DNA of 64,000 nucleotides from Burkholderiales bacterium. Lineage in GTDB: Bacteria > Pseudomonadota > Gammaproteobacteria > Burkholderiales > Burkholderiaceae_C. The stretch is taken from NCBI GenBank assembly GCA_016192425.1, contig JACPUE010000028.1, forward strand, positions 1 through 64,000. The letters run 5' to 3'. The position numbers and the translations under genes were made by a program. The notes under the pieces were generated by a model. That model was not told the origin of the DNA. It saw only the letters and a program-made list of their open reading frames with translations, and did no database searches. Of this stretch, positions 9,503 through 41,501 are shown piece by piece; positions within the stretch are counted from its first letter, which is position 1, and each line of letters opens with the position of its first letter.

Positions 9503-9511
9503 CACAGCACT

Positions 9512-9529
9512 TTCAAACAACTGTTTGAA
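9512..9529. promoter_or_regulatory. Candidate TetR operator (18-bp palindrome)
   Basis: TTCAAACA-AC-TGTTTGAA is perfectly symmetric apart from the two central bases. It ends 22 bases before the ATG of the TetR-family gene, the usual place for an autoregulatory operator of a TetR repressor that heads an efflux operon. Confidence 0.55.
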
Positions 9530-9551
9530 TTTAATGTTCTAATGCGGCCCC

Positions 9552-11652: not shown

Positions 11653-11680
11653 AACACCCCCCTGTGGCGCTGCGCGCCTT

Positions 11681-11720
11681 CCCCCCGCTCTCGCATCGCA
11701 GTGCGATGCGGGCAGGGGGA
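11681..11720. repeat. GC-rich inverted repeat between pump genes
   Basis: A long hairpin with core GCATCGCA-G-TGCGATGC (11693-11709), flanked by C-runs on the left and G-runs on the right. It lies in the 202-base gap between the outer-membrane channel and the periplasmic adaptor genes. It resembles dispersed GC-rich hairpin repeats common in betaproteobacterial intergenic DNA. It could stabilise or attenuate the upstream part of the operon message. The rest of the gap shows no gene. Confidence 0.45.
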
Positions 11721-11854
11721 CGCTCCCAGCGCCCACACCTGGGAATGCTGGCGGCCCTTGCGCGGGAGCCCTGACCATCTACGCGCCAACTTCAAGCGGC
11801 AGGGGCTCAGTGACTTGCAGCGCCACGGAACATTCAAAGTACTTTTCAGGACAG

Positions 11855-13033
11855 ATGCCAATGCGAAACCTCTCTTTCTCCGCGCTCTCTCCCACCGCCA
11901 TCACCTTGGCCGCGGCCTGTATGCTGGCCACGGGCGGTGCGCTGCTGTTCTCCGGCGCCACGCACGCGCAAGACAGCACCAAGGCCCCGCGCCCTGCCCT
12001 GACCGTGCAGACCGAGCCCCCGCAACGCACCGCCATGGCCCAGCGCCTGGCGGCCAACGGCAATGTGGCCGCGTGGCAGGAGGCCAGCATCGGCACCGAG
12101 AGCAGCGGCCTGCGCCTGACCGAAGTGCGCGTGAACGTGGGTGACACCGTCAAGGCCGGGCAGGTGCTGGCCACCTTTGCCGCCGAGATGGTGCTGGCCG
12201 ATGTCGCCCAGGCGCGCGCCAGCCTGCTGGAAGCCAAGGCCCATGCGGCCGAGGCGGCGTCCAACGCCGAGCGCGCGCGCACCCTGCAGGCCAGCGGCGC
12301 GTTGAGCGCGCAGCAGATCGAGCAATACACCACCGCCGCCCAAGCCGCGCAGGCCCGGGTCGAGGCGGCCCAGGCCTTGCTGCAGGCGCAGCAGCTGCGC
12401 TTGCAGCACACCCAGGTGCGCGCACCTGACCACGGCGTCATCAGCGCCCGCAGCGCCACCGTGGGCGCCGTGGTGGGTGCAGGCACCGAGCTGTTCCGCA
12501 TGGTGCGCAAGGGGCGGCTGGAATGGCGCGCCGAAGTCACCGCCACCGAGCTGGGCCGCTTGCGTCCCGGCACGGCAGCCCAGGTCACGGCGGCCAGCGG
12601 CGCCAGCGTGCAGGGCCAGCTGCGCATGGTGGCCCCCACGGTGGACCCGCAAACGCGCAACGCCCTGGTCTATGTGGACCTGCCCGCGCACCCCGACCTG
12701 CGCGCGGGCATGTTTGCGCGCGGCGAATTCCTGCTCGGCCAGAGCGATGCGCTGACCGTGCCGCAGGAGGCGCTGGTGGTGCGCGAGGGCTTCACCTACC
12801 TGTTCGTGCTGGGCGCAGACCAGCGCGTGCAACGGCTCAAAGTACAGCCCGGACGGCGCGCGGGCGACCGGGTAGAGATTCTTTCGGGCCTGGACGCCGG
12901 TGCGCCGGTGGTGGTGCGCGGCGCGGGCTTCCTCAACGATGGGGACCTGGTGCGCGTGGCCTCGGGCACCGAGAAATCTGAAGAAAAACCGGCTGCAGCT
13001 CCCGCCAATCAAGCGCAACCAGCTATCAAATAA
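11855..13033 (+). CDS. RND efflux periplasmic adaptor subunit
   Basis: About 392-residue membrane-fusion protein. An N-terminal signal or anchor (LAAACMLATGGALLFSG, ending THAQ) is followed by the lipoyl-like half (VNVGDTVKAGQVLATF), an Ala-rich alpha hairpin (about 110-190), the second lipoyl half (VRAPDHGVISARSATVGAVVG) and a beta-barrel. The closest family layout is MdtA/MexE-type adaptors. The start is ATG 11855 or ATG 11861, close behind an AGG ribosome-binding site. The final codons, encoding NQAQPAIK, lie inside a copy of the dispersed ATAGCTG-type repeat in reverse orientation. The permease follows after 12 bases. Confidence 0.9.
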   Translation: MPMRNLSFSALSPTAITLAAACMLATGGALLFSGATHAQDSTKAPRPALTVQTEPPQRTAMAQRLAANGNVAAWQEASIGTESSGLRLTEVRVNVGDTVKAGQVLATFAAEMVLADVAQARASLLEAKAHAAEAASNAERARTLQASGALSAQQIEQYTTAAQAAQARVEAAQALLQAQQLRLQHTQVRAPDHGVISARSATVGAVVGAGTELFRMVRKGRLEWRAEVTATELGRLRPGTAAQVTAASGASVQGQLRMVAPTVDPQTRNALVYVDLPAHPDLRAGMFARGEFLLGQSDALTVPQEALVVREGFTYLFVLGADQRVQRLKVQPGRRAGDRVEILSGLDAGAPVVVRGAGFLNDGDLVRVASGTEKSEEKPAAAPANQAQPAIK

Positions 13034-25918: not shown

Positions 25919-27454
25919 CTATTCGCCCGACATCCCGTTCTTCTTCTGCCAGCGCTCATGGTCTTTGGGGTACGCCGCCCGGTAGCGCTGCAGGTGAAAC
26001 GCGGCTTCGTCGTCAAGGCCCAGCAGCGTGGCGCTTTCAATCAGGCGCTCAATGACACGGGGCTCCGGCGAATAATGCAGCATGCTCAAGGCCAGCGCAT
26101 GGACTTGCGGTGCTGTCTCGCGGTTGACCGGCATGGTGGTCAACTCTGCGAAACCAATGGCATCCTTGAAGACCCAGCTGCCATGCAACTGTGCCAAGGG
26201 GTTGTCGCGCATGGAGGGCATGCGCTGCGCTACCGGGGTGTAGATCTGGCTGACACGGTGGTATTGCCAACCCAGAGCAGCCCACAGCACCAAGCCCGAC
26301 ACCCCCACCAGCGCCCACCCCCCCAAGGGAACCCGCCGCACTGCACGCACTGCAAAATCCACCCCCGGACCGCGCCACAGCAATGCCAGCGCCCACAGCG
26401 TAACAAGCTGGAACGGCCCATACCACAACGGAAACTCCAGCATGCTGTGCAGCCCCACCACCGCCAGAATGCCCCAGGCAAACTGGCGCACCGGGTCGGT
26501 TTCGGCCCAGGGGCGCGCACGCCACACCCACAGAGCAACCAGGCCGCAAGCCAGCAACGCCACGGGAAGGCCCAGCTCCACCGCCAAGTGCAAAGGCAGA
26601 TTGTGGGCATTGTCCAGCAACACACAAAAGCGCGTGCCTGGAAACAAGGTGATGTAGTGGGCATAGTCCAACTCACCCCAGCCCCAGCCCGTCCAAGGCT
26701 TTTGCAAAATCAGATGCCACACATTGGCCCACAACACACTGCGGCTGGTACAACCCGGCGCCTCGCCAAAACGGCCCCACAGACTCTCTGCCTGGAAACC
26801 TGTCCACTGCAGCAGCATCTCCGGCAGCAGCCAGGCCGCCCAACCGTACAGCAGCAAACCCGCCAAAGCCAAGCCCAGAGGCAGCAGCCCCCAGGTAGAG
26901 CGCCACAGAAACAGCAGCACACACAAGACCAACCACTGCGCCAACCCCGTACGCGACGCCGTGGCTGCACTGCCCACGGCCAACAGGGCCAGCGCCCAAG
27001 CCAAGAACAAACCCAGGCCCACCGCAAGCCAAGGCATTGGACTTTGCCGCCCCCCCTCGCCCCGATCCCCCAAGCCCCGGACTGACTGCGCCACCACCCA
27101 CCATAGCGCCCACAGGCCCAGGCTTAGGAGCGACGCCTGCTGGTTGCGCTGGCGCAACTGGCCCATGGCTACGCCGGGCTGCGACGGGTGGATCCAGTCG
27201 CTGACTACGGGTGCGATGCCAAAGTACTGAACGATACCAATGGCGCTTGCGAGCAAAGAGGCGAGCAGCAGGCCGGAGGCGCATTGCGTGGCCAAGTCTC
27301 GTCTGTTTTCAACGCACCCGATCCACGCGCCTTTCCACATCAGAAACCAAGCTACGCTCGCACAAAGCCAAGTCGCCATCAGGGGCCAAAAATTGGTAAG
27401 TGGAGGACGAGTAAAAAAGAACAAATAAGACAACGCCAAGGCAAATGCTGGCAT
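25919..27454 (-). CDS. PglL-type O-oligosaccharyltransferase (Wzy_C / O-antigen ligase superfamily)
   Basis: 511-residue membrane protein with about 11-12 helices. [20 protein letters not shown] matches the PglL signature region. The large periplasmic loop holds [19 protein letters not shown], including the His that is essential in Neisseria PglL. The final part [19 protein letters not shown] is also PglL-like, followed by a soluble Wzy_C-type tail. Such enzymes move a lipid-linked glycan onto Ser/Thr of pilins and other periplasmic proteins. The start at 27454 is the first start codon after an in-frame stop. It is divergent from the sugar dehydrogenase gene. Lower GC than the flanking housekeeping genes. 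Confidence 0.82.
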
Positions 27455-27552
27455 GTTGCAGATCCTGCAGAAATGATCGAGCGCCGTTTCCCATTCACCT
27501 AACGGTCATGCACAATGCAGTTAGGCCAATTGTCATTTTATGGTTCTTCTGC

Positions 27553-28884
27553 ATGTCATCTCTTCTAACAGGTAACACTCCACTGCAACAACTTGCTCAA
27601 CGCATTTCCAGCAAGCAGGCTGTGGTTGGCATTTTCGGGTTGGGCTACGTTGGTCTACCTTTGGCACTGCGCTTTGCCGAAGTGGGCCTCAAGGTTATTG
27701 GCTTTGATATTGACCAAGCCAAGGTTCAACAGCTGAATGCCAGCGGCAGCTACATCGAACGGATTGCTCCTCAGAGTGTGCAGCGTGCTCTAGACCTTGG
27801 TTTCGAAGCGACGACTGATTTTTCTCGCAGCACAGAACTTGATGCACTCATCATCTGTGTGCCCACTCCATTGGACGCACATCGCGAGCCTGACCTCAGC
27901 TTCATCATCGCCACCATCGATGCCGCGCTGCCGCACATGCATGTTGGACAACTAGTGAGCCTGGAAAGCACGACATGGCCTGGCACAACCGAAGAAATTT
28001 TGGCCCCACGGATGGCTTTGCGTGGGCTCTCGCCGGGTCAGAATTGTGCCCTTGTTTTCTCACCTGAACGCGAAGATCCCGGCAACCCACATTTCGGCAC
28101 CAAGGACATTCCCAAGGTCATTGGAGGCAGCACCCAAAGCTGCCTCCAGCTTGGTTTGGCACTCTATCAGCACGCCATTCAAACCATGGTACCTGTCAGC
28201 AGCACCCGTGCTGCAGAAATGACCAAGCTGCTGGAGAACATCCACCGCAGCGTGAATATCGGTCTTGTCAACGAAATGAAGATCGTGGCCGACAAGATGG
28301 GTATCAATATCCATGAGGTGATCGCCGCGGCCGCAACCAAGCCCTTTGGTTTTGTTCCCTACAAACCAGGCCCTGGCCTGGGCGGGCACTGCATCCCCAT
28401 TGATCCGTTCTATCTAACCTGGAAGGCTCGCGAATACGGCGTCAACACTCGCTTCATCGAGTTGGCCGGGGAAATCAACCACTACATGCCACACTGGGTT
28501 GTCGGGAAAATCATGGATGCGCTCAATAACCGAGGGCGAGCGCTCAAAGGTTGCCGCATCCTTGTGCTGGGCCTTGCATACAAAAAGAACATCGACGACA
28601 CACGCGAATCACCCGCTGTTGAAATCATGGAGCTGCTCCAGTCCAAAGGTGCAGAAGTCGCCTACAGTGATCCACACGTGCCCATTTTTCCGCACAAGCG
28701 CAACTACCACTTCGACCTACACTCCGAGCCACTCACGCCTGAGAACATTTCTCGCTTCGACTGCTTGGTTCTGGCCACCGACCACGATGCCTTCAACTAC
28801 GATCTGCTGCTTGAACACGCATCGCTGATCATCGATACACGGGGGCGACTGGACTGGCTCCAACACACTGTTGTTCCGGCATGA
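27553..28884 (+). CDS. Nucleotide-sugar dehydrogenase (UDP-GlcNAc/GalNAc 6-dehydrogenase type)
   Basis: About 443 residues. The NAD-binding [20 protein letters not shown] starts near residue 25. [14 protein letters not shown] and [10 protein letters not shown] lie in the first domain. [18 protein letters not shown] and the catalytic Cys in [18 protein letters not shown] follow, then the C-terminal UDP-binding domain ([22 protein letters not shown]). The [10 protein letters not shown] and [13 protein letters not shown] stretches fit the WbpA/WbpO-like branch that oxidises UDP-HexNAc rather than UDP-glucose. It heads a four-gene rightward operon with ATGA overlap to the next gene. The ATG at 27553 is preferred to earlier in-frame starts because it gives the normal family N-terminus. 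Confidence 0.88.
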
Positions 28885-30086
28885 TTGCATCCGTCAAGTC
28901 AGGCCCCGCCACGTCCGCAGTGGCCACCAACACCTTGCATGCCCCCATCTCAACACTCCCTATCCGCACACTTTTTGTGAGCACTACCTATCCGCGCGAT
29001 GCAACGGACTGGCGAGGTACATTCATTGCAAATATTAGTGGTGCGCTGGCTCGACGACCAGACGTTCGACTCAGCCTGTGGGCACCACCAGGCGATGTGG
29101 CACCGGGCATCCAACCAGCCACCACAGCCCAGGAATCCCAATGGCTGGGCCAACTGATGGAGCTTGGCGGCATCTCGCATTGGTTGCGCACTCGGCCAAT
29201 GACCGGATTTCCCGCCGCACTCCAGTTGCTGCACATGCTGCGTTCGGTATATCGGCGCAGCAGCCCATATGACATCTACCATATCAACTGGTTACAGTGC
29301 GCCCTGCCCCTCCCCCAGGATGGCAAACCCGCACTGATTACCGTCTTGGGCAACGACATGCAGTTGCTCCGCCTGCCCATGATGAAGCAAGCCCTGCGGC
29401 GGTGTCTCAGTGGGCGCAGGGCCGCCATCTGCCCCAACGCCACCTGGATGGAGCAGCCACTGAAAGAACTGTTTGGCGACTACGCCAGCATCGCCAGCAT
29501 TCCGTTCGGAATCGATCCTCGCTGGTATGCCATAGAGCGTTCAGTCGGATCCATGCATACCCCGCCCCTGTGGCTGGCCGTGACCCGCCTGACGGCCAAC
29601 AAGCTTGGATCACTGCTTGAATGGTCGCAACCCCTTTTTGGTGACGGCAGCCGCCAACTGCACCTTTTTGGCCCCATGCAGGAAACCATCGATCTGCCCC
29701 ACTGGGTTCACTATCACGGCCCGGCGACTCCAGAGCAGTTGGTCACCGAGTGGTTTCCCCGGGCGCAGGGGCTGATCACGCTCAGCCAACACGCCGAAGG
29801 GCGGCCGCAGGTCATGCTAGAAGCCATGGCTGCAGGCCTCCCTATCATCGCCTCTCAACTCCCTGCCCACGCAGACCTCATCGCCCATGAACAAACTGGC
29901 CTGCTGTGCAATAGCCAACAGGGATATGCGCACGCATTGGCTACACTGGAACATCCACAGACCAATCTACGCATTGGCACGGCTGCCCGCGCATGGGTGA
30001 CGCATGCACTGGGAACCTGGGACGATTGCGCAGAGCGCTACGTTCAAACCTATCAACAGTTGCTGGAGCAGAGCCACCATGTCTGA
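28881..30086 (+). CDS. Glycosyltransferase family 4 protein
   Basis: 401-residue GT-B glycosyltransferase. The N-terminal domain begins [23 protein letters not shown]; the C-terminal donor domain has [17 protein letters not shown] and the GT4 motif [22 protein letters not shown] with the E-x7-E pattern. It is part of the glycan operon, starting in the stop codon of the dehydrogenase (ATGA) and overlapping the epimerase-like gene by 8 bases. It would add a sugar to the lipid-linked glycan in the cytoplasm; the sugar is not predictable. Confidence 0.86.
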
Positions 30087-31002
30087 TCCTGTCCTGCTGA
30101 TTGGCGCCGGGGGATTCGTCGGCCGAGCCTTGCAAGCCGCCCTGACCCAGCAGGGAATCCCGATGATCGCAATGGTTCGAAGTCGTGCCGCGTTGCAAAC
30201 AGTTGGAACGCACATTATCGACACCCCGCTCCAGAGCGCCTCCGACTTGGCACCGCTACTTTCCAAAGTGGGGGCAGTCATTCACCTTGCATCTGCTTCA
30301 ACGCCTGGTGGATCCGCGGGCAATCCCCTTCAAGAACTTGAACACAACCTGCGCCCGACCCTGGCACTGCTGGAAGCACTGCAGTCCACGCCCCATGTAC
30401 GGTTGATTTACGTCTCTTCCGGTGGAACACTCATGCACCGCCAGCAAGATCAAAGCGACGAGTATCAAGCCGTCTATTCACGCTCCTACCATGGTGCCGG
30501 CAAGATTGCAGCAGAACAATTCATAGAAGCCTGGAGTGAACAATTCTCAGGGCACGCCACGGTACTGCGCCCCTCCAACCTATACGGCCCAGGGCAACCC
30601 GAGCGCGCAGGGTTTGGCATCATTCCGGCTGCGATGGGCAAACTGGCCCATGGGCAAGAACTGCACATTTGGGGTGATGGCTCTGCTTGCCGTGACTACC
30701 TGTATATCGATGACTTCGTCCGTCTCTTGCTGACAGTCCTGGAAACACCATCCCCCCAGGGGTGCCGCATCTTCAACGCCTGTAGCGGACTAAGCACCTC
30801 ACTCAATGAACTGCTGGGCCTGATAGAACAAGTCTCCGGCAAGCACCTGCAACGACTCTACATGCCGAGTCGCGCGGTGGACGCCCCCAGCGTACAACTG
30901 CAATCCCATCGCGCCCGCGCTGCCTTTGGATGGACTGCACAAGTGTCTCTTGGCGCCGGACTCCACCTCACATGGCAATGGTTCAACTCCACCCGGCACT
31001 GA
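30079..31002 (+). CDS. NAD-dependent epimerase/dehydratase family protein, altered catalytic motif
   Basis: 307 residues. The Rossmann motif is GAGGFVGRALQ; VIHLASASTPGGSAGNP, YVSSGGTL, RPSNLYGPGQ and RDYLYIDDFVRLLL follow the extended SDR (GalE/RmlB-like) pattern. The usual YxxxK catalytic pair is unusual: the sequence reads RSYHGAGK, so a His occupies the place of Tyr relative to the Lys and the Tyr is one residue earlier. Activity may be altered or carried by the shifted Tyr. The ATG at 30079 overlaps the previous gene. Likely a nucleotide-sugar 4-epimerase-type enzyme for the local glycan. Confidence 0.8.
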   Translation: MSDPVLLIGAGGFVGRALQAALTQQGIPMIAMVRSRAALQTVGTHIIDTPLQSASDLAPLLSKVGAVIHLASASTPGGSAGNPLQELEHNLRPTLALLEALQSTPHVRLIYVSSGGTLMHRQQDQSDEYQAVYSRSYHGAGKIAAEQFIEAWSEQFSGHATVLRPSNLYGPGQPERAGFGIIPAAMGKLAHGQELHIWGDGSACRDYLYIDDFVRLLLTVLETPSPQGCRIFNACSGLSTSLNELLGLIEQVSGKHLQRLYMPSRAVDAPSVQLQSHRARAAFGWTAQVSLGAGLHLTWQWFNSTRH

Positions 31003-32021
31003 ACAGGCCGTCAGCCCCACTTGTTTCAGTGTGCATTGCCAACTACAACGGCATGCACGTACTGAGTGATTGCATTAAGTCAGTGCAGACCCAGTTGGGA
31101 ACCGCATCGGTCGAAATCATCATCCACGACGACGCCTCCAGCGACGACTCGGTGGCATGGATCCGCCAGCACCACCCCCACGTCGAACTCTTGGCTTCAA
31201 CTGAAAACGCGGGTTTTTGCATAGCCAACAACCGCATGGTTGCGCATGCGCGTGGTGACTACGTATTGCTGCTCAACAACGATGCAGCGCTGTTCGAGGA
31301 TGCTCTAACCACTCTACTCACCATGGCATGCGAGCAGCCGACACCCAGCATCATCTCACTGCCGCAATACGACTGGGAAACGGGACAACTGGTAGATCGT
31401 GGCTGTCTGCTCGATCCGTTCTACAACCCTGTACCCAACCCCACGACCACTATCACTGAAGTTGCCATGGTGATAGGCGCCTGCCTGTTCATACCGCGCT
31501 CATTGTGGAACACGCTTGGAGGGTTCCCCGAATGGATGGGGTCACTCGCCGAAGACATGTACCTGTGTTGCCTGGCCCGCCTGCGCGGCCACCCCGTGCT
31601 GGTGGCAGCAAACAGCGGCTACCGTCACCGCCAGGGAGCCAGCTTTGGCGGGAACAGGATCAACGCCGGCAAACTGCAAACCACCTACCTCCGCCGCGCC
31701 ATGAGCGAGCGCAACAAGACGGCCGTCCTGTTGATCTGCACACCTGGCCCAATGGTCTGGCCACTATTGATACTGCATTGCTTCACGCTCACTTTCGAAG
31801 GCATGGCTCTGACACTACTCAAACACGATGCCAAGCTATGGAAACAAGTCTACGGCAATGTAATCACGCAACTGCTGCACCACCGCTCAGCCTGGCATCG
31901 ACAACGCCAGACCGTACAAAACGAGCGCACAGCCACTGTGTTCGCCTATTGGCGGACATTCGTCTGTATGCCCAGAAAACTGGCAATGCTGATACGCTAT
32001 GGACTCCCTGAGGTGCGATGA
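30972..32021 (+). CDS. Glycosyltransferase family 2 protein (rhamnosyltransferase-like)
   Basis: About 349 residues. The GT-A start SVCIANYNGMHVLSDCIKSV, HDDASSDDSVAWI and ENAGFCIANNRMVAHARGDYVLLLNNDA (DXD-like NND) give a GT2 of the GT2_RfbF/WbbL type. MVIGACLFIPRSLWNTLGGF...EDMYLCCLARLRGH is the acceptor-side signature. The C-terminus has a hydrophobic segment (about 255-280), suggesting membrane association. It is the last gene of the rightward glycan operon; the start (30972 or 30978) overlaps the epimerase-like gene by about 31 bases. Confidence 0.85.
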   Translation: MAMVQLHPALNRPSAPLVSVCIANYNGMHVLSDCIKSVQTQLGTASVEIIIHDDASSDDSVAWIRQHHPHVELLASTENAGFCIANNRMVAHARGDYVLLLNNDAALFEDALTTLLTMACEQPTPSIISLPQYDWETGQLVDRGCLLDPFYNPVPNPTTTITEVAMVIGACLFIPRSLWNTLGGFPEWMGSLAEDMYLCCLARLRGHPVLVAANSGYRHRQGASFGGNRINAGKLQTTYLRRAMSERNKTAVLLICTPGPMVWPLLILHCFTLTFEGMALTLLKHDAKLWKQVYGNVITQLLHHRSAWHRQRQTVQNERTATVFAYWRTFVCMPRKLAMLIRYGLPEVR

Positions 32022-32034
32022 TTGGCAGACACCT

Positions 32035-32808
32035 TCAAGCCTTGCGAAACAGGAAAAACGGCTCCAGCGGATTGACCCCAAAATCATCAGCATCACGGTT
32101 GGCCAGCAAAATCTGATGGGTCTGAACGCAGGATTCAAGACCTACCTTTGCAAAGCGGTCAAAAACATCGCGCCCAAACAGGCGCACATGGTCTTCTTGA
32201 CCAAACGCCTGTAACCGCGCCTGCGGTGTATTGATGCCCACATCCTCCCAGGTGTTGTGCAATCTGCGGCTATAAGGCGTCTGGAGAACGGCATACCCGC
32301 CAGGTTTAAGGACGCGATGGATTTCGGCAAGCGCCAAATCGAGCGCATCCACGTGTTCAAGCACATGATTGGCGAGCAGCAGATCGAAAGTTCCTGCCTC
32401 GAAAGGCATGGACTGCATGTCTACACGCATGATGTCAGTTGACGTCGGATACAAATCACAACGAACATGTTGTCTCGGTTTTTGCTCGGCAATACGCTGA
32501 GACAACCGCTTCTCTGGCGCAAAGTGCAGCACTGACCACTGGTGGATTTGATCCCAAAGACCCGAAGACTGCAAATAAAGCAGCAAGTGACGCTCTCGAT
32601 CATGTGCGCTACAACGAGGACATTCAAAATGCTCGACATCACTGCCAACCATGTCCAGAGCAAGCATCAAAGGAGCAACGCCGCTCATGCCTTGTCGAAA
32701 AGGCATAAATCTCCACACTCGGTGTCCACAAACCACGCACTGCCTGCGACCACCGGGTAGCCACCCTGCAAATATATAGGGAACTAGTTTGCGAAAGTGC
32801 AACGGCAT
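32035..32808 (-). CDS. Class I SAM-dependent methyltransferase with N-terminal zinc-ribbon-like motif
   Basis: 257 residues. The N-terminus has two CxxC pairs (CVVCGHRVWRFMPF and CPRCSAHDRERH) that could bind zinc. The methyltransferase core is compact: FDLLLANHVLEHVDALDLALAEIHRVLKPGGYAVLQTPY, typical of Methyltransf_11. It is the last gene of the leftward glycan operon and converges on the GT2 gene 13 bases away. It probably methylates a sugar of the glycan, but the substrate is not known. Confidence 0.8.
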   Translation of the reverse strand: MPLHFRKLVPYIFAGWLPGGRRQCVVCGHRVWRFMPFRQGMSGVAPLMLALDMVGSDVEHFECPRCSAHDRERHLLLYLQSSGLWDQIHQWSVLHFAPEKRLSQRIAEQKPRQHVRCDLYPTSTDIMRVDMQSMPFEAGTFDLLLANHVLEHVDALDLALAEIHRVLKPGGYAVLQTPYSRRLHNTWEDVGINTPQARLQAFGQEDHVRLFGRDVFDRFAKVGLESCVQTHQILLANRDADDFGVNPLEPFFLFRKA

Positions 32809-32823: not shown

Positions 32824-33774
32824 TCAGTGATGATACAAAACAGGGAGCTTGTCGTACCCCGCCATCACGGCCAACCTTGCGTTTGCCAGTTTTGCTGCCA
32901 TGCGTGTGACATTGTTCAGCACAATTATGGTGGTACGAAACGGCCCATATGGCGATGCCTCATACACAATAGGCACCCAATGGTGAAGCAATGCCAAGTC
33001 GCGCGTGCGCGCGGCACGAAAGCACACCCGCCTCAGGAAATCGGCAATGCCAAGGGCATAGTCGATATCACTCACGAGTTCACATGGCACGCTCTGTATG
33101 GCTTGCCAGTACAGCTCACGCACGCGCTCATTTGCATTCAGCACAAGTGAGCCCAGGGTATTCACCCGATAGGCCACCATTGGTTCGCCGATATGCCCTA
33201 GCCAGCCATGGCGTGCCTGCCACAAGTGAATCTGATAGTCGATTTGATCACCTTCAACCCAGCCCGTAGAGTTGGCTGCACGATAGAGCATGGAGCTGTT
33301 GTTGAGCACGTTGCCACGACGCAAAAGCGCTGCAAGCGTGAGCTTGGCATCCCCTACATCGTTGAACAAGCCGATGGGCGCACCGGCTTCGTTGACGGTC
33401 AACGCATTGGTGTATACAGCACTGCAATCGGGGTGTGCCTGAAGATAGGCCAACTGCCGCGCCAGCTTACCAGGCAACCAATAGTCATCGCCGTCCACAC
33501 GAGCCACATAATCTGCATTCGCACGCAACAATAGATCGCGCAGATTGGCAAATGCACCCAAGTTAGGCTCCCGTCGCAGATGCTGCAAACGTGCGCCATA
33601 TTCGCAGACCAAGGTCTGCACAATGGAACTGGTGCCGTCAGTTGAAGCGTCGTCCCCCACCAGCACCTGAAGATCAGCCTGCACCTGCTGATCAAGAATA
33701 CTGCGCAGGCAGGTCTCGATATATTGTTGCTGGTTGTAGGTCACCACGCATACAAAAATACGGGGGCGGCTCAT
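32824..33774 (-). CDS. Glycosyltransferase family 2 protein
   Basis: 316 residues. A clear GT-A domain at the N-terminus: FVCVVTYNQQQYIETCLRSIL, VLVGDDASTDGTSSIV, and the metal-binding VARVDGDDYWLPGKL (DGDD). This layout is typical of GT2 enzymes of capsule and O-antigen clusters. ATGA overlap with the upstream flippase gene marks the same operon. The donor sugar is not predictable. Confidence 0.86.
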   Translation of the reverse strand: MSRPRIFVCVVTYNQQQYIETCLRSILDQQVQADLQVLVGDDASTDGTSSIVQTLVCEYGARLQHLRREPNLGAFANLRDLLLRANADYVARVDGDDYWLPGKLARQLAYLQAHPDCSAVYTNALTVNEAGAPIGLFNDVGDAKLTLAALLRRGNVLNNSSMLYRAANSTGWVEGDQIDYQIHLWQARHGWLGHIGEPMVAYRVNTLGSLVLNANERVRELYWQAIQSVPCELVSDIDYALGIADFLRRVCFRAARTRDLALLHHWVPIVYEASPYGPFRTTIIVLNNVTRMAAKLANARLAVMAGYDKLPVLYHH

Positions 33775-35258
33775 GTGAGTGTGCTCTGAGTGGAGGAAGA
33801 ATGCCCAGGCCGCAAAACGCGCAAAAAACCAAGCAAATCACGCCAAGCTTGCATTCCTATGATCACTGCCACAGCCAAATAGGCAAATGCAGCTATACCT
33901 GCGGCTACGAACAACTCCAGCCACAGATTGTCAGTCCACCCCAATGACAACCAGGCAACAGCACTCGACAACAGCGTCAGCAACAGTATGGGCAGCATGT
34001 CACGAAGCTGCAATCGCAATCCACAACCCAGAAGACGCTGGGAATACCAAGTGTTGATCAGCACACAAATCAGGCTGGCACCCAGCAATGCCCAAGCCAC
34101 GGCCATGACCCCAAAGAAGGCCGACGTCCAGACCAACGGAATCGAGATCAACCCCTTGGCGATTTCCATTTGCAACACCAGATCCGATCGCCCCAACGCA
34201 CCGAGTGCTGCCAGGTTGAGCACATGCACCGGCCAAAACAACACAGCGAAGGAAAGCACGGCCAGCAGAGGGCCTACCTCTACCCACTGCGGCCCGTACA
34301 GCAGCATGACCAATGGCTGAGCCATTACCGCAATGCCCGCCATGCACGGGGCAAACACAAACATGGAGAGGCGCAGGGCCAAACGCAACGCACCTGCCAG
34401 CTTGACGGGCTGCCCCGCTACACTAGAAAACATGGGAAGACCCACGCGGTTGAGCAAGCCGCTCATGAACTGGGCCGGTGCCTGCTGTGTATCTTGCGCC
34501 ATTGCATATACGCCCAGGGTTCTGGCATCAAACAGCTTTCCGATCAGCAAAGACTGTAACCGCACCGAAACCACATTCAGCGCATTAGCCAGCAGTAGCC
34601 ACCCCCCAAAACGAAACAACTGCACAAATGCACCCCCGTCAAATCGTCCAACAGGGCGCCACCCCGACAACCTCCACAACAATCCAGCCCTCAACAGTGC
34701 ACCCGCAAGTACCTGCCACACCAAGCTCCAGACGCCACTCCCCTCCATGGCGAGCCACAACGCCAAAGCAGCCGAACCTAAAGACGCCACCATCTCTGCT
34801 GCGGCACGTCGGCGAAAATCAAGCCGCTGGGTCAGCACCGCATTGGGCACCGTAGCCAGCGCTCCCAAGGGCAGCATCCAAAGCAAAACCCTCAGCAAAG
34901 GCGCCAGCGATGGCTGCGCAAAAAAAACTGCGATAAATGGAGCCGCCCACCATAACAGCAGCGCCAAAGTGCAAGCCAAGCCAAGATTAACCAAAAACAC
35001 ACTAGCTTCTTCATTGGCACTGGTCGTCTGCCGCTGGATCAAAGCACTACCGAGCCCACCCTCAACCAGAAGGGCGGCAAAGCCGGTAAATGCCAGCAAC
35101 ATGGCCATAACCCCGAAATCAGAAGGTGTCAGCAACCGCGCCAGCGCCACCATCAAGCCAAATTGAACAACGTAACGAGTGCCAATCTCAAGAAAGCTCC
35201 ATCCCACGGCATGGATCGCTCGCTGCGTTGAGCTCGAAGGCGGGAACAATGGCTTCAT
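33771..35258 (-). CDS. Oligosaccharide flippase family protein (Wzx/WzxC-like, MOP superfamily)
   Basis: 495-residue membrane protein with about 14 helices. The N-terminus AVGWSFLEIGTRYVVQFGLMVALARLLTPSDFGVMAM is the usual start of polysaccharide flippases, and MPLGALATVPNAVLTQRLDFRRRAAAEM is characteristic of the WzxC branch. It would flip the lipid-linked glycan made by the neighbouring glycosyltransferases to the periplasmic face. There it could be polymerised or used by the PglL-type transferase. It overlaps both the upstream acetyltransferase and downstream GT2 genes by 4 bases. Confidence 0.88.
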   Translation of the reverse strand: MKPLFPPSSSTQRAIHAVGWSFLEIGTRYVVQFGLMVALARLLTPSDFGVMAMLLAFTGFAALLVEGGLGSALIQRQTTSANEEASVFLVNLGLACTLALLLWWAAPFIAVFFAQPSLAPLLRVLLWMLPLGALATVPNAVLTQRLDFRRRAAAEMVASLGSAALALWLAMEGSGVWSLVWQVLAGALLRAGLLWRLSGWRPVGRFDGGAFVQLFRFGGWLLLANALNVVSVRLQSLLIGKLFDARTLGVYAMAQDTQQAPAQFMSGLLNRVGLPMFSSVAGQPVKLAGALRLALRLSMFVFAPCMAGIAVMAQPLVMLLYGPQWVEVGPLLAVLSFAVLFWPVHVLNLAALGALGRSDLVLQMEIAKGLISIPLVWTSAFFGVMAVAWALLGASLICVLINTWYSQRLLGCGLRLQLRDMLPILLLTLLSSAVAWLSLGWTDNLWLELFVAAGIAAFAYLAVAVIIGMQAWRDLLGFLRVLRPGHSSSTQSTLT

Positions 35259-35896
35259 TTCTTGCGAACTGCCGGCACGCCAGCAACCAAGGCATTTGCT
35301 TCAACGCTATGGGTCACACATGCGCCCGCAGCAATAACCGCATCATCGCCCACAACAAGAGGCGTATCTGCACTACCGTTGATGAAACATGCATTTGTTC
35401 CCACAAACACCCTGCGACCAATGCGAACGTTGCCAGCAACATTGACAGCGGGCGATAGAGTCGAAAAATCGCCAATAGTCACGTCATGGTTGATGGTGCA
35501 GCCAATATTGATTTGCACATGCTTGCCAACTGCAATGTTGCAAGTAAGTACAGAATTTGCACAGATCACGGTCCCGGCACCTATGTGGACAAGCGGCGAC
35601 ATCTCCACCCGTGGATGGATGAGATTCACTGCCTGATGCCCTGCATCCAAGAACATGGAAACAATCCTCTGACGATCATCAGGATTTCCCAGCGCCACCA
35701 CGAATCTGGCCAGTTCAGATGGGACAAGTTCACTAAAGAGTTTTACCTCCACCCCATTGACAGGTGGCGTCAGATAATCTGATTTATCCACAACAAATGT
35801 CAATTTAACATTGCGCCCAAACCGCTTTTGCGCAAGCCACGCTAATTCTCGGCCAGAACCGCCAGCTCCAAAAATATACAATTCATTGAACAACAT
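35255..35896 (-). CDS. NeuD/PglD-type sugar acetyltransferase (left-handed beta helix)
   Basis: About 213 residues. The N-terminal Rossmann part LYIFGAGGSGRELAWLA binds the nucleotide sugar; the C-terminal hexapeptide repeats include IGAGTVICANSVLTCNIAVGK and VFVGTNACFINGS. INIGCTINHDVTIGD carries the His that is catalytic in PglD. It would N-acetylate an amino sugar made by the adjacent aminotransferase. I chose the ATG at 35896; a TTG at 35929 in frame would overlap the aminotransferase gene. Four-base overlap with the flippase gene. Confidence 0.85.
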   Translation of the reverse strand: MLFNELYIFGAGGSGRELAWLAQKRFGRNVKLTFVVDKSDYLTPPVNGVEVKLFSELVPSELARFVVALGNPDDRQRIVSMFLDAGHQAVNLIHPRVEMSPLVHIGAGTVICANSVLTCNIAVGKHVQINIGCTINHDVTIGDFSTLSPAVNVAGNVRIGRRVFVGTNACFINGSADTPLVVGDDAVIAAGACVTHSVEANALVAGVPAVRKK

Positions 35897-35915
35897 CTCT
35901 GGTGCATCTAGACGG

Positions 35916-37100
35916 CTAATCGCCAACAATTGCTGAATTCACGATAAAAGCCATAAGGCTTGCGATGATGTCAATTTGCTCACTGTGTATGGATATTCCA
36001 TTTGGCAATACCACCACCTGCTCAGCCACAGCACATGTGTATGGCAGCATCAGGCCCGCATGGGGAAACAGGTCACGGTAGGGCTGCATTTGATGACTAC
36101 CTGGCCAGAAATATTTGCGTGCCAAGATATTCTCTGCATGCAGAGCATTGATGATGGCATCCCGACTGACTGGACAGTCCGGCCCCACCTCCAACACTAT
36201 GTAGTGGTGGCTATTGCTTTCTGCAGGGTCGTAATCAAGCACACGAATTCCAGGAATACCAGCCAGCGCTCTGCAATAAGCTGCATGGTTGCGCATATTG
36301 CCCTGAACAATAGCATCAAAATTATCTAGGTTGGTTAGTCCCATAGCTGCACACACCTCGATCATTTTGCCATTCGTGCCGGGATGAATGACGTTGTCAT
36401 AACCCCTAAAACCAAAATTCCGCATCAGGCGCATGGTTTCTGCTAGTTCGTCATCATTGGTCGTGACGGCACCGCCCTCCATGGTGTTGAATGCCTTGGT
36501 AGCATGAAAACTGAAAACCTCACATGCGCCAAAGCGTCCGATGCTATGGCCTCTGTGCGAGCTACCAAACGCATGGGCGGCATCGAACATCAGCTTCAGG
36601 CCATGTTCCGCGGCAATCTCACTCAGCGCATCCACAGGAGCAGCTCGCCCCCACAAGTGCACCCCAATGATCCCGCTGGTGCGCGGTGTGATCATCTTTC
36701 GAACGGACACCGGGTCAAGGTTGTGAGTCGCAGGATCGATATCTGCAAATACCGGCGTGATGCCCTGCCAATACAGGGCATGCGCAGTAGCCACAAACGT
36801 CCAAGACGGCACAATGACCTCCCCAGCAAGGCCCAGGGCACGGATGGCGATCTCCAGGGCAATGGTGCCGTTGCACATGGCCACACAATGCCTGACGTTC
36901 AGCCGATCGGCAATTTTCTGCTCCAACGTCTGCACCATGGGGCCATGGTTTGTCAGCCACTGGCTGTCAACAACCTGCCCCACCCTTGCGAGAAAAGACT
37001 CACGGTTGCCAATATTCGGGCACCCGACATGCAGCGGCGTGGAAAACGCTGGCGGCGCTCCATGGATGGCGAGATCTGCGGGTGAACGAACTGATTTCAT
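35916..37100 (-). CDS. DegT/DnrJ/EryC1/StrS family sugar aminotransferase
   Basis: 394-residue PLP enzyme. NGTIALEIAIRALGL and VIVPSWTFVATAHALYWQGITPVFADID lie in the large domain, DAAHAFGS provides the cofactor-contacting Asp, and SFHATKAFNTMEGGA the PLP Lys. The FHATK..NTMEGG form resembles enzymes that make 4-amino-4,6-dideoxyhexoses (VioA/RmlB-linked type). No 4,6-dehydratase is encoded in the window, so the keto-sugar substrate must come from elsewhere. With the NeuD/PglD-like gene it forms an aminate-then-acetylate pair. Confidence 0.87.
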   Translation of the reverse strand: MKSVRSPADLAIHGAPPAFSTPLHVGCPNIGNRESFLARVGQVVDSQWLTNHGPMVQTLEQKIADRLNVRHCVAMCNGTIALEIAIRALGLAGEVIVPSWTFVATAHALYWQGITPVFADIDPATHNLDPVSVRKMITPRTSGIIGVHLWGRAAPVDALSEIAAEHGLKLMFDAAHAFGSSHRGHSIGRFGACEVFSFHATKAFNTMEGGAVTTNDDELAETMRLMRNFGFRGYDNVIHPGTNGKMIEVCAAMGLTNLDNFDAIVQGNMRNHAAYCRALAGIPGIRVLDYDPAESNSHHYIVLEVGPDCPVSRDAIINALHAENILARKYFWPGSHQMQPYRDLFPHAGLMLPYTCAVAEQVVVLPNGISIHSEQIDIIASLMAFIVNSAIVGD

Positions 37101-37246: not shown

Positions 37247-38107
37247 CTACTTGCTGTCCTTGTACATCAAAGCGGTAATTTGCTCAGAGATCAGCCCCAT
37301 CAAAAACACCATCACGCCGCCAGAGTACAACAGAACGCTCATGTTGGTGAAGCGCCCATCATGCCACCATGTCCAGCCGTACCAACCGCTGGCCAGCATG
37401 AACATCACCACCGCTATGGGGGCAAAAATCTTGAGCGGTGAAAACAGCGTGCCAATCTTGAAAATAATCAACAAGAATCGCGCCCCATCTCGCAGCAGGC
37501 GGATGTGGCTACGCCCTATGCGCCTGGATGCATGTATAGGCACATAAGCCACAGAATAACCAGCACGAAGAAACGCCATGGTGCTGGTAGTGGGATAGGA
37601 AAAGCCATTCGGCAAAAGGTATAAAAACTCCCGGAACCGGGCCGCGCGCACAGCCCTGAAGCCGCTGGTAAGGTCCTCGACCCTGTGCCCCGTCATCCAG
37701 CTGGCAAGACGGTTGTACAGACCGTTAGCCAGCCCCCGGCCCACACTGGCCTGCGAACCCTTTTGGCGCGCCCCCACAGCCATGTCGTGGCCCGCAGCCA
37801 ACTGCTCCAGCAGCCGGTGAATGTCTGCCGGGTCATGCTGCCCATCGGCATCCATGAAAACAATCACCTCACCCAGAGCCGCTCGCGCTCCAGACTTGAT
37901 GGCTGCACCATTGCCCTTACTGTAAGCATGCGTGACCACCTGGGCACCCGCAGCCTGGGCCAGTGCTGCAGTATCGTCATCCGATCCATCATTGACTACG
38001 ATGACCTGCGCTTCAGGGATGGTGGCAGCAATGCCACGCACCACCGACCCTATGGCTGCCGCCTCATTTTTTGCAGGGAGCACGACAGAAATTGTGTTTT
38101 TTTGCAT
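37247..38107 (-). CDS. Polyprenyl-phosphate glycosyltransferase-like family 2 protein (DPM1-like)
   Basis: 286 residues. The GT-A domain has ISVVLPAKNEAAAIGSVV, VIVVNDGSDDDTAALA and VFMDADGQHDPADI (the DxD of DPM1-type enzymes). TSGFRAVRAARFREFLYLLPNGFSYPTTS follows the dolichyl-phosphate-mannose-synthase/GtrB pattern. Two C-terminal membrane helices (about 215-235 and 255-275) fit membrane anchoring. It may charge undecaprenyl phosphate with a sugar for a GT-C enzyme such as the one encoded downstream of pilA, or serve the adjacent glycan. It leads the leftward operon, after a 146-base gap in which I see nothing definite. Confidence 0.84.
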   Translation of the reverse strand: MQKNTISVVLPAKNEAAAIGSVVRGIAATIPEAQVIVVNDGSDDDTAALAQAAGAQVVTHAYSKGNGAAIKSGARAALGEVIVFMDADGQHDPADIHRLLEQLAAGHDMAVGARQKGSQASVGRGLANGLYNRLASWMTGHRVEDLTSGFRAVRAARFREFLYLLPNGFSYPTTSTMAFLRAGYSVAYVPIHASRRIGRSHIRLLRDGARFLLIIFKIGTLFSPLKIFAPIAVVMFMLASGWYGWTWWHDGRFTNMSVLLYSGGVMVFLMGLISEQITALMYKDSK

Positions 38108-38166: not shown

Positions 38167-38898
38167 TCAATCCCAAGGCCTCAGATCGAGCACATCAATG
38201 ACCTTCTGATTTTCATCCAGCAAGACCACCATGGACTCCTCTCTCGCATTCAGGGGAAGCCATCTTGCATTCTGGGGGTGCTTCCTGAGCGCATTTTCCA
38301 CCGCCGCTTTCGGGTTGTGGCGGTACAGTTCCGATATATCCTTGCTGCGTTTTTCAAGCGCAGCACGTGCTTCACCAAGGGGGCGATACAGATCCAGCCG
38401 CTGTGGAAGGTCTGCCCCCCCGGTCAGTGCGTCTATCAACAATTGCTGAGCAACCTTGGGGTCATCTTCTGGAAGGACGGCGGCAACCCAGCGTGGCCCG
38501 ATCCAGGAGTCCAGTTGGTATTCTGGCAGGGCAAACGGGCGATATTTGTCCAGCACCTCAGTGGTCTGGATGACATCGAACCGATCCTTGTTGAACACCA
38601 CCCACTGGGGCCGCCCCGCCGCCACAGTATACAAACCATAGGCTAGCGCAGAAATTTGCACCAGCACAATGATGGCCAAATCCAGCTCTAGGTATCTTTT
38701 GCCTTTTTTGTACACCAACAAGGTGAGAAAAGGCCCCAGAATGCTGTCGACGACCAGCACCAAGCCAAACACATTTCTGACGCCCACAGCCTTGTCCAGC
38801 ATGTCTGGATACCAAATGAAAAACACCAGCCATGCCAAGGAAGCCGCTATCAGCAGCGAACAGATAAAATGGAAAGCAAAAGCCTTGAAACGCGTCAT
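38167..38898 (-). CDS. TfpX/TfpZ family type IV pilin accessory protein
   Basis: 243 residues. An N-terminal membrane region (about 8-30, 40-62 and 75-95) contains the family stretches WYPDMLDKAVGVRNVFGLVLVVDSILGPFLTLLVYKKGK and ELDLAIIVLVQISALAYGLYTVAAGRPQWVVF, then VFNKDRFDVIQ. In Pseudomonas aeruginosa each such accessory (TfpX, TfpY or TfpZ) is encoded beside pilA, specific to a pilin type, and needed for full pilus assembly. Here it lies two genes downstream of pilA on the same strand, after the large GT-C-like gene, as TfpZ does in group IV strains. Confidence 0.85.
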   Translation of the reverse strand: MTRFKAFAFHFICSLLIAASLAWLVFFIWYPDMLDKAVGVRNVFGLVLVVDSILGPFLTLLVYKKGKRYLELDLAIIVLVQISALAYGLYTVAAGRPQWVVFNKDRFDVIQTTEVLDKYRPFALPEYQLDSWIGPRWVAAVLPEDDPKVAQQLLIDALTGGADLPQRLDLYRPLGEARAALEKRSKDISELYRHNPKAAVENALRKHPQNARWLPLNAREESMVVLLDENQKVIDVLDLRPWD

Positions 38899-38946
38899 TT
38901 CCGACCCATGGATTGCTAGTTGAGAAAGTAGGAAATCAAAATTTGA

Positions 38947-40911
38947 TCAATCCAGCCCCTCACTGCTTAGTATGGCGTCTACTTTCTGTATGGCGTCTCT
39001 CAGACTCGAAAGGGAGGAGCGCCATGCAGCACCAGTTGCCGAATTGGGGGCTTGCAGTATGACTGAATCGATCCATTCCAGCGCGGCTTTATTTTCGCCG
39101 TGCTGAAACATGGCCACCGCCACAATTTGCGCACCTGAAAAAGATGGAAAGTCATGGAATGCCTTGGCCAGGTAGTCAATGCGCTGCTCCGGCTGCCCCA
39201 ACAACTCGGCATTTTTTGCAAGTTCATGGTACACATGGTGGCGAACCCGGGGCGTGCCATTGACATAGGCATTGTGCAACAGCGCCAGCAGGATTTTCTG
39301 GCTGTCTTGCACACCAAATACCTTACATTTGCCGTTACGCATGGCATCGCCAAGCTTTTGCAAAGAGGTGACCACACCCGACGGCTTGCGCATCAAGGGA
39401 ATGTTCTTTTCCAGCCGCACCATACGCTGCTGCAATTGGGGCGCATCTTCCAGCACACACGCTGCAGCCAGGGACTGCAGCGCCACATCTGTGCGCGAAG
39501 GATTGTCACCAGCAAATTCGTCCAACAGAGAAGCTGCTTTTGCTTCCTTACCCTGCATCTCCAGTTGCCAGGCAAGATATTGCACAGCCCGGGTGGAGTC
39601 AGGCTGCGACTTGTACCAAAGCAAGCCCGCCAGTAGCGGTTTGCCCCAGAGGGATGTGACCTGGGCCAGTGCAAACAACTGGTAGCCCGCAAACAGCAAC
39701 AGCAGCCCCACGGCAATGGATGGCAGCTTGATTCTGCGCATCAAATTTTCGCATAATGCCACCACAAACAAGACTAGCCCCAAAGCAGCTACATAGTTGC
39801 GATGCTCAAAATATAATTCCAACGGAATAAACGTAGATTCCAGCAGGTGGGCCACCCCAAAAAAAAGCACTGCAAACAGCCCAATCCTGCCCAGGCGCGG
39901 CTCCTTGCGGGACCAGCGGTACAGGGTAACAATGACCAGAATCCCAAAAAGTACAGACACCCATGGTACCGCCTGCTGCCAGTTGTAGGGGGCATATCCG
40001 TCGTGGTACGGTCCCAATTGCGCGGGACGAGGCAAAAATATCTGGCGCAGATACTCGATCAAAATGACCGCCTCACTCGCCAGGCGCTGCTCCATGCTGA
40101 AATCGCGTAGGTAGGTCAGGGTGGCCTGGATGGCGTCCCAAGCGTACAGCACGTAGCCCACCAACAGCACCGGCACCGCCGCAAAGGCCACGCGCAAGGC
40201 CCAGCGCCACAGTGCTGGCGCACAGGGTGCCGACAGGTGCCCAAAGAAGAACCACTCTACCAGCGGAATAAAGCACAGCAGCAGCACGCCATTTTCCTTG
40301 GAGAACACTGCCAGCAACGTCCCCAGCCCGCAGGCCAGCACCAAGGCGCCCAGGCTGCGCCAGCCCGGGTAGTTGCCCGCACGTAGGCGCAGCTGGGCAT
40401 AAGTGGCCAATGTGGCAAAGACAAAAAAGCCGGACACCTCCGTCATGCGCTGCACCGGCATGAGCACGCCGCTGGCATGGATGGGCAGCAGCAGCCAGAT
40501 GCCCGCCGTGGCAGCCGCCATGCCCAACGCTCGCGAGGGGCTCGTTTGCAACTGATCCAGCACCGGGCGCAGAAACAGGAAGATGGCAGCCCCCGACATC
40601 AGGTGCCAGACCAGGGTGTGCTGCACCACCCCCCAAGGGTTGCGGGGCCAATGACCATAGTCGGCCAGAAACGTGGCCAATGCAACAGGCCGCCCGCCCG
40701 GCCCCGCAATGCCGCCAAACACAAAGTTCACGGCGCCTAGGTAAGTGTCTGCCTGTGCAAGCCCCTTGAGGTTGATCCAGTCGTCAAATTGCCAGGTGAG
40801 GCCTGCGGCCAGGCCATAGGCCCAGCAGGCCAGCAGGGCGCTAGCGGCCAGAACAAGCCCCGCTACCGCTTGCGCGGGCATGCAGGAAGTCAAGCGAGGT
40901 GTCTGCGTCAT
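38947..40911 (-). CDS. Large GT-C-like membrane glycosyltransferase beside pilA (TfpW-like by position)
   Basis: 654 residues. About eleven membrane helices occupy residues 10-430. The first external loop begins TWQFDDWINLKGL (Asp-Asp at about 43-44), followed by GGRPVALATFLADYGHWPRNPWG, the general GT-C/TMTC-like pattern. The C-terminal 220 residues are soluble and alpha-helical, TPR-like (AAALEWIDSVILQAP-type helices). It lies directly after pilA and before a TfpX/TfpZ gene, the order seen for TfpW, the GT-C D-arabinofuranosyltransferase that modifies P. aeruginosa group IV pilins. I infer a pilin glycosyltransferase; sequence identity to TfpW was not tested. Confidence 0.6.
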   Translation of the reverse strand: MTQTPRLTSCMPAQAVAGLVLAASALLACWAYGLAAGLTWQFDDWINLKGLAQADTYLGAVNFVFGGIAGPGGRPVALATFLADYGHWPRNPWGVVQHTLVWHLMSGAAIFLFLRPVLDQLQTSPSRALGMAAATAGIWLLLPIHASGVLMPVQRMTEVSGFFVFATLATYAQLRLRAGNYPGWRSLGALVLACGLGTLLAVFSKENGVLLLCFIPLVEWFFFGHLSAPCAPALWRWALRVAFAAVPVLLVGYVLYAWDAIQATLTYLRDFSMEQRLASEAVILIEYLRQIFLPRPAQLGPYHDGYAPYNWQQAVPWVSVLFGILVIVTLYRWSRKEPRLGRIGLFAVLFFGVAHLLESTFIPLELYFEHRNYVAALGLVLFVVALCENLMRRIKLPSIAVGLLLLFAGYQLFALAQVTSLWGKPLLAGLLWYKSQPDSTRAVQYLAWQLEMQGKEAKAASLLDEFAGDNPSRTDVALQSLAAACVLEDAPQLQQRMVRLEKNIPLMRKPSGVVTSLQKLGDAMRNGKCKVFGVQDSQKILLALLHNAYVNGTPRVRHHVYHELAKNAELLGQPEQRIDYLAKAFHDFPSFSGAQIVAVAMFQHGENKAALEWIDSVILQAPNSATGAAWRSSLSSLRDAIQKVDAILSSEGLD

Positions 40912-40962
40912 TGTGTGGCCCGCGTGGCTGCGGGCATTTTAGGAACGTGGGGATTTTGCGGC

Positions 40963-40988
40963 AAAAAAAACCCGGCTTGCGCCGGGTT
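40963..40988 (-). terminator. Rho-independent terminator of pilA
   Basis: AACCCGGC (minus strand) with loop GCAA and GCCGGGTT, then eight T residues. It ends pilA transcription 20 bases after the stop codon. The glycosyltransferase gene downstream is thereby expressed less or from its own promoter. Confidence 0.9.
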
Positions 40989-41007
40989 CCTGGGGTGCTG
41001 GGACAGA

Positions 41008-41436
41008 TCAGCGGAAAGCTGCTGAGCGGTATTTTTCTGCAAAGCTGCAGGTACCGGCCCAAGTGACACTACCACCCATATCTGCAGGCGTTATCCTGCA
41101 AGTACCACCAGACACTTTGGTGTTGACCTTCTTGCCATAGGTTGCAACGACCACACCGTTAGCACCGACTGCCACCTGGGTCACGTAAGAACCCACGATG
41201 GAAGCTGCTGTAGGCACGCCTGCCGAAGTGTTGCTGCCAGGAAATCTGCCGCGCTCAGACCAGAAATCCATCACGCCGTTCTTGGCGCCGCCCATCAGCA
41301 CTTCGCCTTCGGACACCTGGGTGCGGATGGTGTAGTCTTGGTAAGCAGGCAGTGCGATGGCAGCCAGAATACCGATAATCGCCACGACGATCATCAATTC
41401 GATCAGGGTGAAACCCTTTTGCATGGTGCGCTTCAT
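41008..41436 (-). CDS. pilA: Type IVa major pilin
   Basis: 142-residue prepilin with an 8-residue leader MKRTMQKG cut before Phe1 ([27 protein letters not shown]); Glu5 of the mature protein is present. Two Cys bracket the D-region ([10 protein letters not shown]...WAGTC). The alpha-beta loop of the mature protein contains [12 protein letters not shown] at about residues 60-71, a Ser/Thr-rich stretch where arabinosylated group IV pilins of P. aeruginosa carry their sugars. A strong ribosome-binding site (AAGGAGTG) precedes the ATG. A sigma-54 promoter lies upstream and a terminator directly downstream, consistent with a highly expressed monocistronic transcript. Confidence 0.95.
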
Positions 41437-41483: not shown

Positions 41484-41501
41484 AAGCATATGGCGTGCCA
41501 A
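41484..41501 (-). promoter_or_regulatory. Sigma-54 promoter of pilA
   Basis: On the minus strand TTGGCACGCCATATGCTT has the -24 GG and -12 GC spaced exactly as in the consensus TGGCAC-N5-TTGCW (one mismatch). Transcription would start about 38 bases before the pilA ATG. RpoN with the PilS/PilR system is the usual control of type IVa pilA. Confidence 0.85.

Follow-up and report, generated by a model that had tools for sequence, protein, structure and literature searches.

What decorates the type IV pilin encoded in a 64,000-nucleotide stretch of Burkholderiales DNA (assembly GCA_016192425.1, contig JACPUE010000028.1, positions 1 to 64,000; here called the window), and with which sugar? On the minus strand, the pilin gene pilA is followed by a gene for a 654-residue membrane protein that resembles glycosyltransferases of fold class C (GT-C) and by a TfpX/TfpZ-family accessory gene, and all three open reading frames (ORFs) are confirmed in the order known from Pseudomonas paraeruginosa PA7/Pa5196, where TfpW arabinosylates the pilin. 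A preliminary description of the window had predicted from this order, a donor pathway for the sugar 30 kb away and a Ser/Thr-rich pilin loop that the pilin carries D-arabinofuranose (D-Araf). Our analysis retains one part of that prediction: glycosylation of the pilin is likely, since a pilin-linked GT-C-like protein distantly related to TfpW stands with TfpX/TfpZ in the PA7 order, while arabinosylation is unlikely. We favour, with a probability of about 0.7, a second GT-C-type pilin glycosylation cassette downstream of pilA, fed by a lipid-linked donor, perhaps an oligosaccharide, that is started by a family 2 glycosyltransferase (GT2) of the same gene row (Table 1).

A simple hydropathy scan gives the 654-residue protein about ten hydrophobic segments, with an acidic pair right after the first (FDD at residues 42-44), as in polytopic GT-C enzymes. 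Pfam returned weak TPR matches below the cut-off and nothing else, and a profile search of the PDB gave 95 matches; among the 60 listed, all begin from profile position 429, that is, in the tail, and most are TPR proteins. Neither a Wzy_C nor a PglL_A domain was found by Pfam, and the identity of the protein as a Wzy_C-type (PglL/TfpO-type) ligase was rejected because the Wzy_C domain is absent. The 14 compared rows of the family share the motifs FDD, VQRM, KE and HR (mostly as EHRNY), which the window protein carries as FDD, VQRM, KENG and EHRNY; the exceptions are one member without EHR (G196) and three tandem partner copies without VQRM (G049a, G158a and G240c).

Compared as profiles, this protein and TfpW are distant relatives (hhalign 99.8%, 15% identity); a direct BLASTP against PA7 TfpW gives E 0.028. 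In a maximum-likelihood tree of 28 proteins, for which the program flags deviating residue composition in many rows and a single long branch, the window protein and 18 others separate from seven TfpW-type proteins, each group at 100/100. The 18 others comprise 17 proteins from loci with the GT2 and one with no GT2 homologue seen adjoining (G430); the latter comprise PA7, five proteins from genomes with DprE1 (G028, G154, G208, G289 and G723) and G366, a genome outside the DprE1 search. G587 and G597, which are more distant, fall on the TfpW side of the tree but outside the TfpW group, and the matches from G494, G580, Accumulibacter (L079) and G740 and one further copy from L057 were left out of the tree. 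Six TfpW relatives share WDD, GRFD, KE and an RF following G, motifs whose roles are not known and which as a set are absent from the window protein. The two have in common a polytopic layout in which DD follows the first hydrophobic segment, similarly placed KE and ER/HR motifs and, in relatives, TPR-like tails. Orthology with TfpW was rejected: given the separate tree group, the different motifs and the BLASTP result, the 654-residue protein is TfpW-like in general layout but not a TfpW.

The GT2 encoded behind the TfpX/TfpZ-family gene carries a DAD motif and, towards its C-terminus, two hydrophobic segments. Nearly the whole protein can be aligned with ArnC (E 6e-16); further matches are dolichol-phosphate mannose synthase (DPMS; 1e-10) and the GtrB sll0501 (9e-7), and in NCBIfam AglJ scores best (E 1.3e-36, under the cut-off); judged by these similarities, its product should be a polyprenyl-phosphate-sugar. 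Among 299 genomes of the bacterial family to which the window belongs, homologues of the 654-residue protein occur in 14, and homologues of the GT2 at E ≤ 1e-70, a threshold that leaves weaker relatives outside the count, occur in the identical 14 (Fisher p = 2.6e-24, shared ancestry ignored). The 13 genomes besides that of the window supplied 14 loci, which makes 15 with the window. The GT2 lies directly downstream of the GT-C-like gene in 14/14 fetched loci, at 60-83% identity to that of the window, where TfpZ stands between the two; in the same loci, the GT-C-like protein has diverged to about 26-41% identity over the aligned parts. A recognisable pilin adjoins the pair in 12 of the 15 loci, and one locus with no pilin beside it (L054) begins at a contig end. 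By hand count, 13/15 loci have one or more additional glycosyltransferase or flippase-type genes, read in the same direction, among the next four genes, and a GT2-started oligosaccharide is therefore favoured. The window cassette itself is operon-like, with gaps of -14 to 146 bp from pilA onwards and all genes in the same direction.

The pilin matches Pfam Pilin (PF00114, E 9.7e-14) and N_methyl, and the solved pilins nearest to it are Neisseria PilE (E about 2.5e-30). Its SNTSAG segment places a serine at mature position 63, which aligns gap-free with Neisseria PilE; in the meningococcal peptide WPGNNTSAGV the glycan is reported on Ser63 (PMC3643930). With N-methyl-Phe and an assumed cleavage before FTLIE, the unmodified pilin would have a mass of about 13,918 Da. 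The preliminary description had quoted a Ser/Thr-rich loop at mature residues 60-71 as the region modified in group IV pilins. The loop is present where it was quoted, but it is unlike those of PA7, G028 and G154; the pilin is PilE-like and not of group IV. Nor is it unusually rich in Ser/Thr: the fraction over mature residues 48-85 is 0.21, within the range of 0.13-0.34 over 31 pilins, the window's included (L055, L062 and L072 were entered but are not represented among the 31), and this richness was rejected as evidence. The window pilin and both pilins of G187 (L052 7939-8376 and 8352-8936) end in AFR or AFRS and have their last Cys 12-13 residues from the C-terminus, unlike most other compared pilins.

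In the mechanism that we propose, the GT2 would load a sugar, most likely a hexose, on polyprenyl phosphate at the cytoplasmic side. This sugar would be used alone or built up further by the glycosyltransferase, aminotransferase, acetyltransferase and methyltransferase encoded downstream, and the lipid-linked glycan would be flipped, probably by Wzx. The 654-residue protein would then transfer it to the pilin, the likeliest site being Ser63, a position known as an acceptor elsewhere, while the TfpZ protein would aid pilus assembly and not act as the transferase. If this is true, a further family of pilin-glycosylating enzymes, with its own donor-making partner, occupies the same slot as the PglL/TfpO-type ligases and TfpW. 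Pilin glycans are reported to shield against pilus-specific phages (PMC12369383, PMC11841053).

The slot that follows the MBL gene and pilA is indeed variable. It holds TfpW in two genomes of the family (G028 and G154) and Wzy_C-type ligases in G225 and G262. Within the genus of the window, G225 has its Wzy_C ligase between pilA and TfpZ, whereas the stretches fetched from G294 (8.6 kb) and G141 (20 kb) contain pilA and TfpZ but gave no GT-C-like match. The Neisseria PglL/PilE system and the pilin-adjacent PglL loci of Burkholderiales share with the window the Ser63-type acceptor loop, the slot and a cluster with a Wzx-type flippase, a NeuD/PglB/VioB-family acetyltransferase and an aminotransferase; they differ in the Wzy_C or PglL_A domain of the transferase.

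Several observations weigh against the GT2-fed pilin cassette. The GT-C fold of the 654-residue protein is proposed from hydropathy and distant TfpW similarity, and the Pfam GT-C families matched 0/14 members of its family. Similarity to ArnC, DPMS and AglJ leaves the sugar unfixed. At four GT-C/GT2 loci (L053, L063, L064 and L065) the pilins have no SAG motif, and at a fifth (L061) the loop reads SLG, the loops of L055 and L062 not being among those read. Since SAG loops also occur in pilins adjoining Wzy_C ligases (G032 and G165), Ser63 is a good guess for the acceptor and not a signature of the 654-residue enzyme. The downstream gene classes were assigned with a home-made ORF caller and by single-linkage clustering; assignment to the flippase class is weak for L053 and L055, the latter of which also has a gene of the glycosyltransferase class, and in L059 and L065 no glycosyltransferase or flippase gene in the same direction was found among the next four. 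Two loci, L057 and L059, carry the pair with no pilin in the fetched 20 kb. Finally, genomes that carry the GT-C-like gene have a strong DprE1 more often than the rest (6/14 vs 27/285, Fisher p = 0.0018, shared ancestry ignored), and this reading does not account for it.

The alternative that survives best is a narrow form of the same reading, in which the 654-residue protein passes one hexose directly from the GT2 product to the pilin, the downstream glycan genes serving a different pathway. It is the simplest use of a DPMS-type enzyme, the loci L059 and L065 have no obvious extension set, and 146 bp separate the GT2 from the aminotransferase gene in the window; set against the glycosyltransferase or flippase-type genes that follow at 13/15 loci, we regard it as possible but doubtful. 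An elaboration in the opposite direction is equally tentative. In the AglJ/AglB N-glycosylation of Haloferax, AglJ is reported to put the first sugar on dolichol phosphate, after which other enzymes extend it and a membrane transferase moves it to protein (PMC3871713). The window cassette might be a bacterial counterpart of this route, in which a pilin O-oligosaccharide is built on polyprenyl monophosphate from a DPMS-type GT2 start and, once Wzx has flipped it, is moved in one piece to Ser63. The transferase would then represent an undescribed family of GT-C oligosaccharyltransferases that alternates with TfpW- and PglL-type enzymes in the slot behind pilA. The likeness would lie in the GT2-catalysed start on a lipid phosphate, AglJ being the closest NCBIfam model of the window GT2; the archaeal system differs in being N-linked and in using an STT3/PglB-type transferase, whereas that of the window is bacterial and presumably O-linked. 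No description of the GT-C/GT2 pair was found in the open-licence PMC subset, a weak negative.

Less probable still is that the pair is a three-component-type system that decorates a surface polysaccharide with side-chain sugars in the periplasm, with pilA a mere neighbour. Such systems (Gtr-type, GT136) are described as combining a polyprenyl-phosphate-sugar synthase with a GT-C enzyme (PMC11127046), and a conserved pair of this kind is what the loci hold at the sequence level. The two loci with no pilin and the glycan-assembly genes that often lie downstream would fit this explanation. The pilin at 12/15 loci points the other way, as does a slot that otherwise holds TfpW or Wzy_C/PglL-type genes; the acceptor is probably the pilin and not O antigen. 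The flippase candidate of the window cassette is Wzx and not GtrA: a GtrA-like gene was seen in the D-Araf cluster only, no genome-wide GtrA search being made, and none was identified in the cassette, of which just some neighbours were scanned.

The donor pathway on which the D-Araf prediction relied is real, since DprE1, DprE2-like, GtrA-like and UbiA genes are confirmed in the window, 31.2 kb separating DprE1 from the 654-residue gene. A strong DprE1 (E below 1e-80) occurs in 33/299 family genomes, the cut being set at a jump in the best E-values per genome from 2e-85 to 3e-16; G261, the genome next below the cut, contains a short piece of 53% identity that may be a DprE1 fragment. Whereas the window genome has the pathway, 8/14 genomes with a homologue of the 654-residue protein have no strong DprE1, each being at least 99% complete, and 27 genomes carry DprE1 with no such homologue. 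In the same-genus genome G225, the D-Araf cluster is 92-95% identical to that of the window (82% for the 476-residue polytopic protein) and lies about 32 kb from pilA, and the 654-residue gene is absent, so the cluster neither needs nor predicts that protein. We judge it a separate system; it includes a polytopic protein of its own, and its distance from pilA hardly differs between the window and G225. The polytopic proteins beside DprE2 are dissimilar between genomes apart from the window/G225 pair, as if they served different acceptors.

Loci that do resemble the arabinose type are found in the family. In G028 and G154, the order is MBL gene, pilA, TfpW (38-40% identity to PA7 TfpW), TfpZ, DprE1, DprE2 and a further polytopic protein, with pilin loops of the group IV type very like that of PA7; a GT2 of 27% identity (E about 1e-12) lies further down. 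The presence of such loci, with pilins so close to that of PA7, suggests transfer between Pseudomonas and the family. In G208 (Hydrogenophaga taeniospiralis, family Comamonadaceae) and G289, TfpW relatives lie between the pilin and DprE genes. None of these four genomes has a match to the 654-residue protein, nor to the window GT2 at 1e-70. The PA7 reference (G790) has pilA, a 641-residue TfpW and a 245-residue TfpX, with pilB presumably adjoining pilA. A contig scan with two GT-C-like proteins from D-Araf loci gave two loci only, one being the query's own, and a class-wide search with the same profile found six of 369 genomes at E ≤ 1e-20 (G366, G587, G597, G430, G494 and G580), the window genome not among them. 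That the 654-residue protein is a TfpW using D-Araf from 31 kb away is hence very improbable: the pathway in the same window, the PA7-like order, the profile similarity and the DprE1 enrichment, its single statistical support, are outweighed by the tree split, the BLASTP result and missing TfpW motifs, the constant GT2 partner in place of a DprE1/DprE2 link, the eight near-complete genomes with no strong DprE1, the Neisseria-like pilin, the G028/G154 loci with their group IV-like pilins and adjacent DprE genes, and G225. Gene order and a donor pathway elsewhere in a genome are insufficient for assigning a sugar.

Table 1. Coordinates of the features discussed (window positions unless a locus is named; aa, amino acids).
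Feature	Position	Strand	Basis or remark
Sigma-54-like promoter element TGGCACGCCATATGCT	41485-41500	-	48 bases 5' of pilA start codon; 1 mismatch
pilA, type IV pilin, Neisseria PilE-like, 142 aa	41008-41436	-	ORF list, Pfam, loop reading, comparison with solved pilins
Intrinsic-terminator-like hairpin, AACCCGGC-GCAA-GCCGGGTT-T6	40963-40990	-	Between pilA and GT-C-like gene; sequence, folding
GT-C-like membrane protein, 654 aa, C-terminal TPR-like region; proposed pilin glycosyl- or oligosaccharyltransferase	38947-40911	-	ORF, hydropathy, tree, profile comparison
TfpX/TfpY/TfpZ-family pilin accessory, 243 aa, 3 hydrophobic segments	38167-38898	-	NF041437
GT2, ArnC/DPMS/AglJ-like polyprenyl-phosphate-sugar synthase, proposed donor-making enzyme	37247-38107	-	Domain and structure matches, hydropathy
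DegT-family sugar aminotransferase, nearest model DesI	35916-37100	-	TIGR04427, E 4e-143, below model cut-off
NeuD/PglB/VioB-family sugar acetyltransferase	35255-35929	-	TIGR03570, 174 bits vs cut-off 160.8
Wzx/MOP flippase, related to O-glycosylation flippase model	33771-35258	-	NF058658, E 1e-67, below cut-off
Second GT2 glycosyltransferase, no hydrophobic segments	32824-33774	-	Domain matches, hydropathy
Methyltransferase	32035-32808	-	Domain match
D-Araf donor cluster, judged separate system	4175-9080	mixed	
Polytopic protein beside DprE2, 476 aa	4175-5605	-	
DprE2-like	5702-6454	-	Best equivalog match below cut-off
DprE1	6455-7756	-	E 2e-74 to solved DprE1
GtrA-like	7753-8166	-	
UbiA	8166-9080	+	
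Polytopic proteins beside DprE2, other loci	L066 7217-8641; L067 7272-8990; L068 7642-9510; L069 7101-8561		
Complete arabinose-type pilin loci	L163 (G028) 6145-11931; L164 (G154) 6421-12201		Group IV-like pilA, TfpW, TfpZ, DprE1, DprE2

Among the neighbours of the cassette, the 243-residue protein passes the TfpX/TfpY/TfpZ cut-off (282 bits vs 200) and is the one member of that family found in the window genome. The gene set suggests an acetamido-deoxyhexose that may be methylated, and a dTDP-glucose 4,6-dehydratase (above cut-off) is encoded elsewhere in the genome; a viosamine-type sugar, and with it the names VioA and PglD, may be considered here. The hairpin between pilA and the GT-C-like gene folds at -19.8 kcal/mol (z -2.48) and was not listed by a consensus terminator scan; terminators after pilin genes that precede accessory genes are reported from other species (PMC11841053). 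The sigma-54-like element upstream of pilA is a weak lead: against the consensus used, the window gave 20 matches at ≤2 mismatches vs 23.7 expected by chance.

Some further loci were noted. In L108 (G740, a Pseudomonadaceae genome with a strong DprE1), a TfpW-like gene lies at 9032-10915; stops were reported inside the match, yet an open 627-residue frame is listed, so the stops may precede the start. L169 (G213) has group IV-like pilins and TfpZ at 9984-11093, with no TfpW match in the fetched 20 kb. Tandem GT-C-like genes with a GT2 and no pilin lie at L059 8298-13422 and L057 10565-15587, among neighbours that look housekeeping by eye. In the window, positions 27445-32021 (+), convergent to the cassette, encode a nucleotide-sugar dehydrogenase, two glycosyltransferases and an epimerase/dehydratase.

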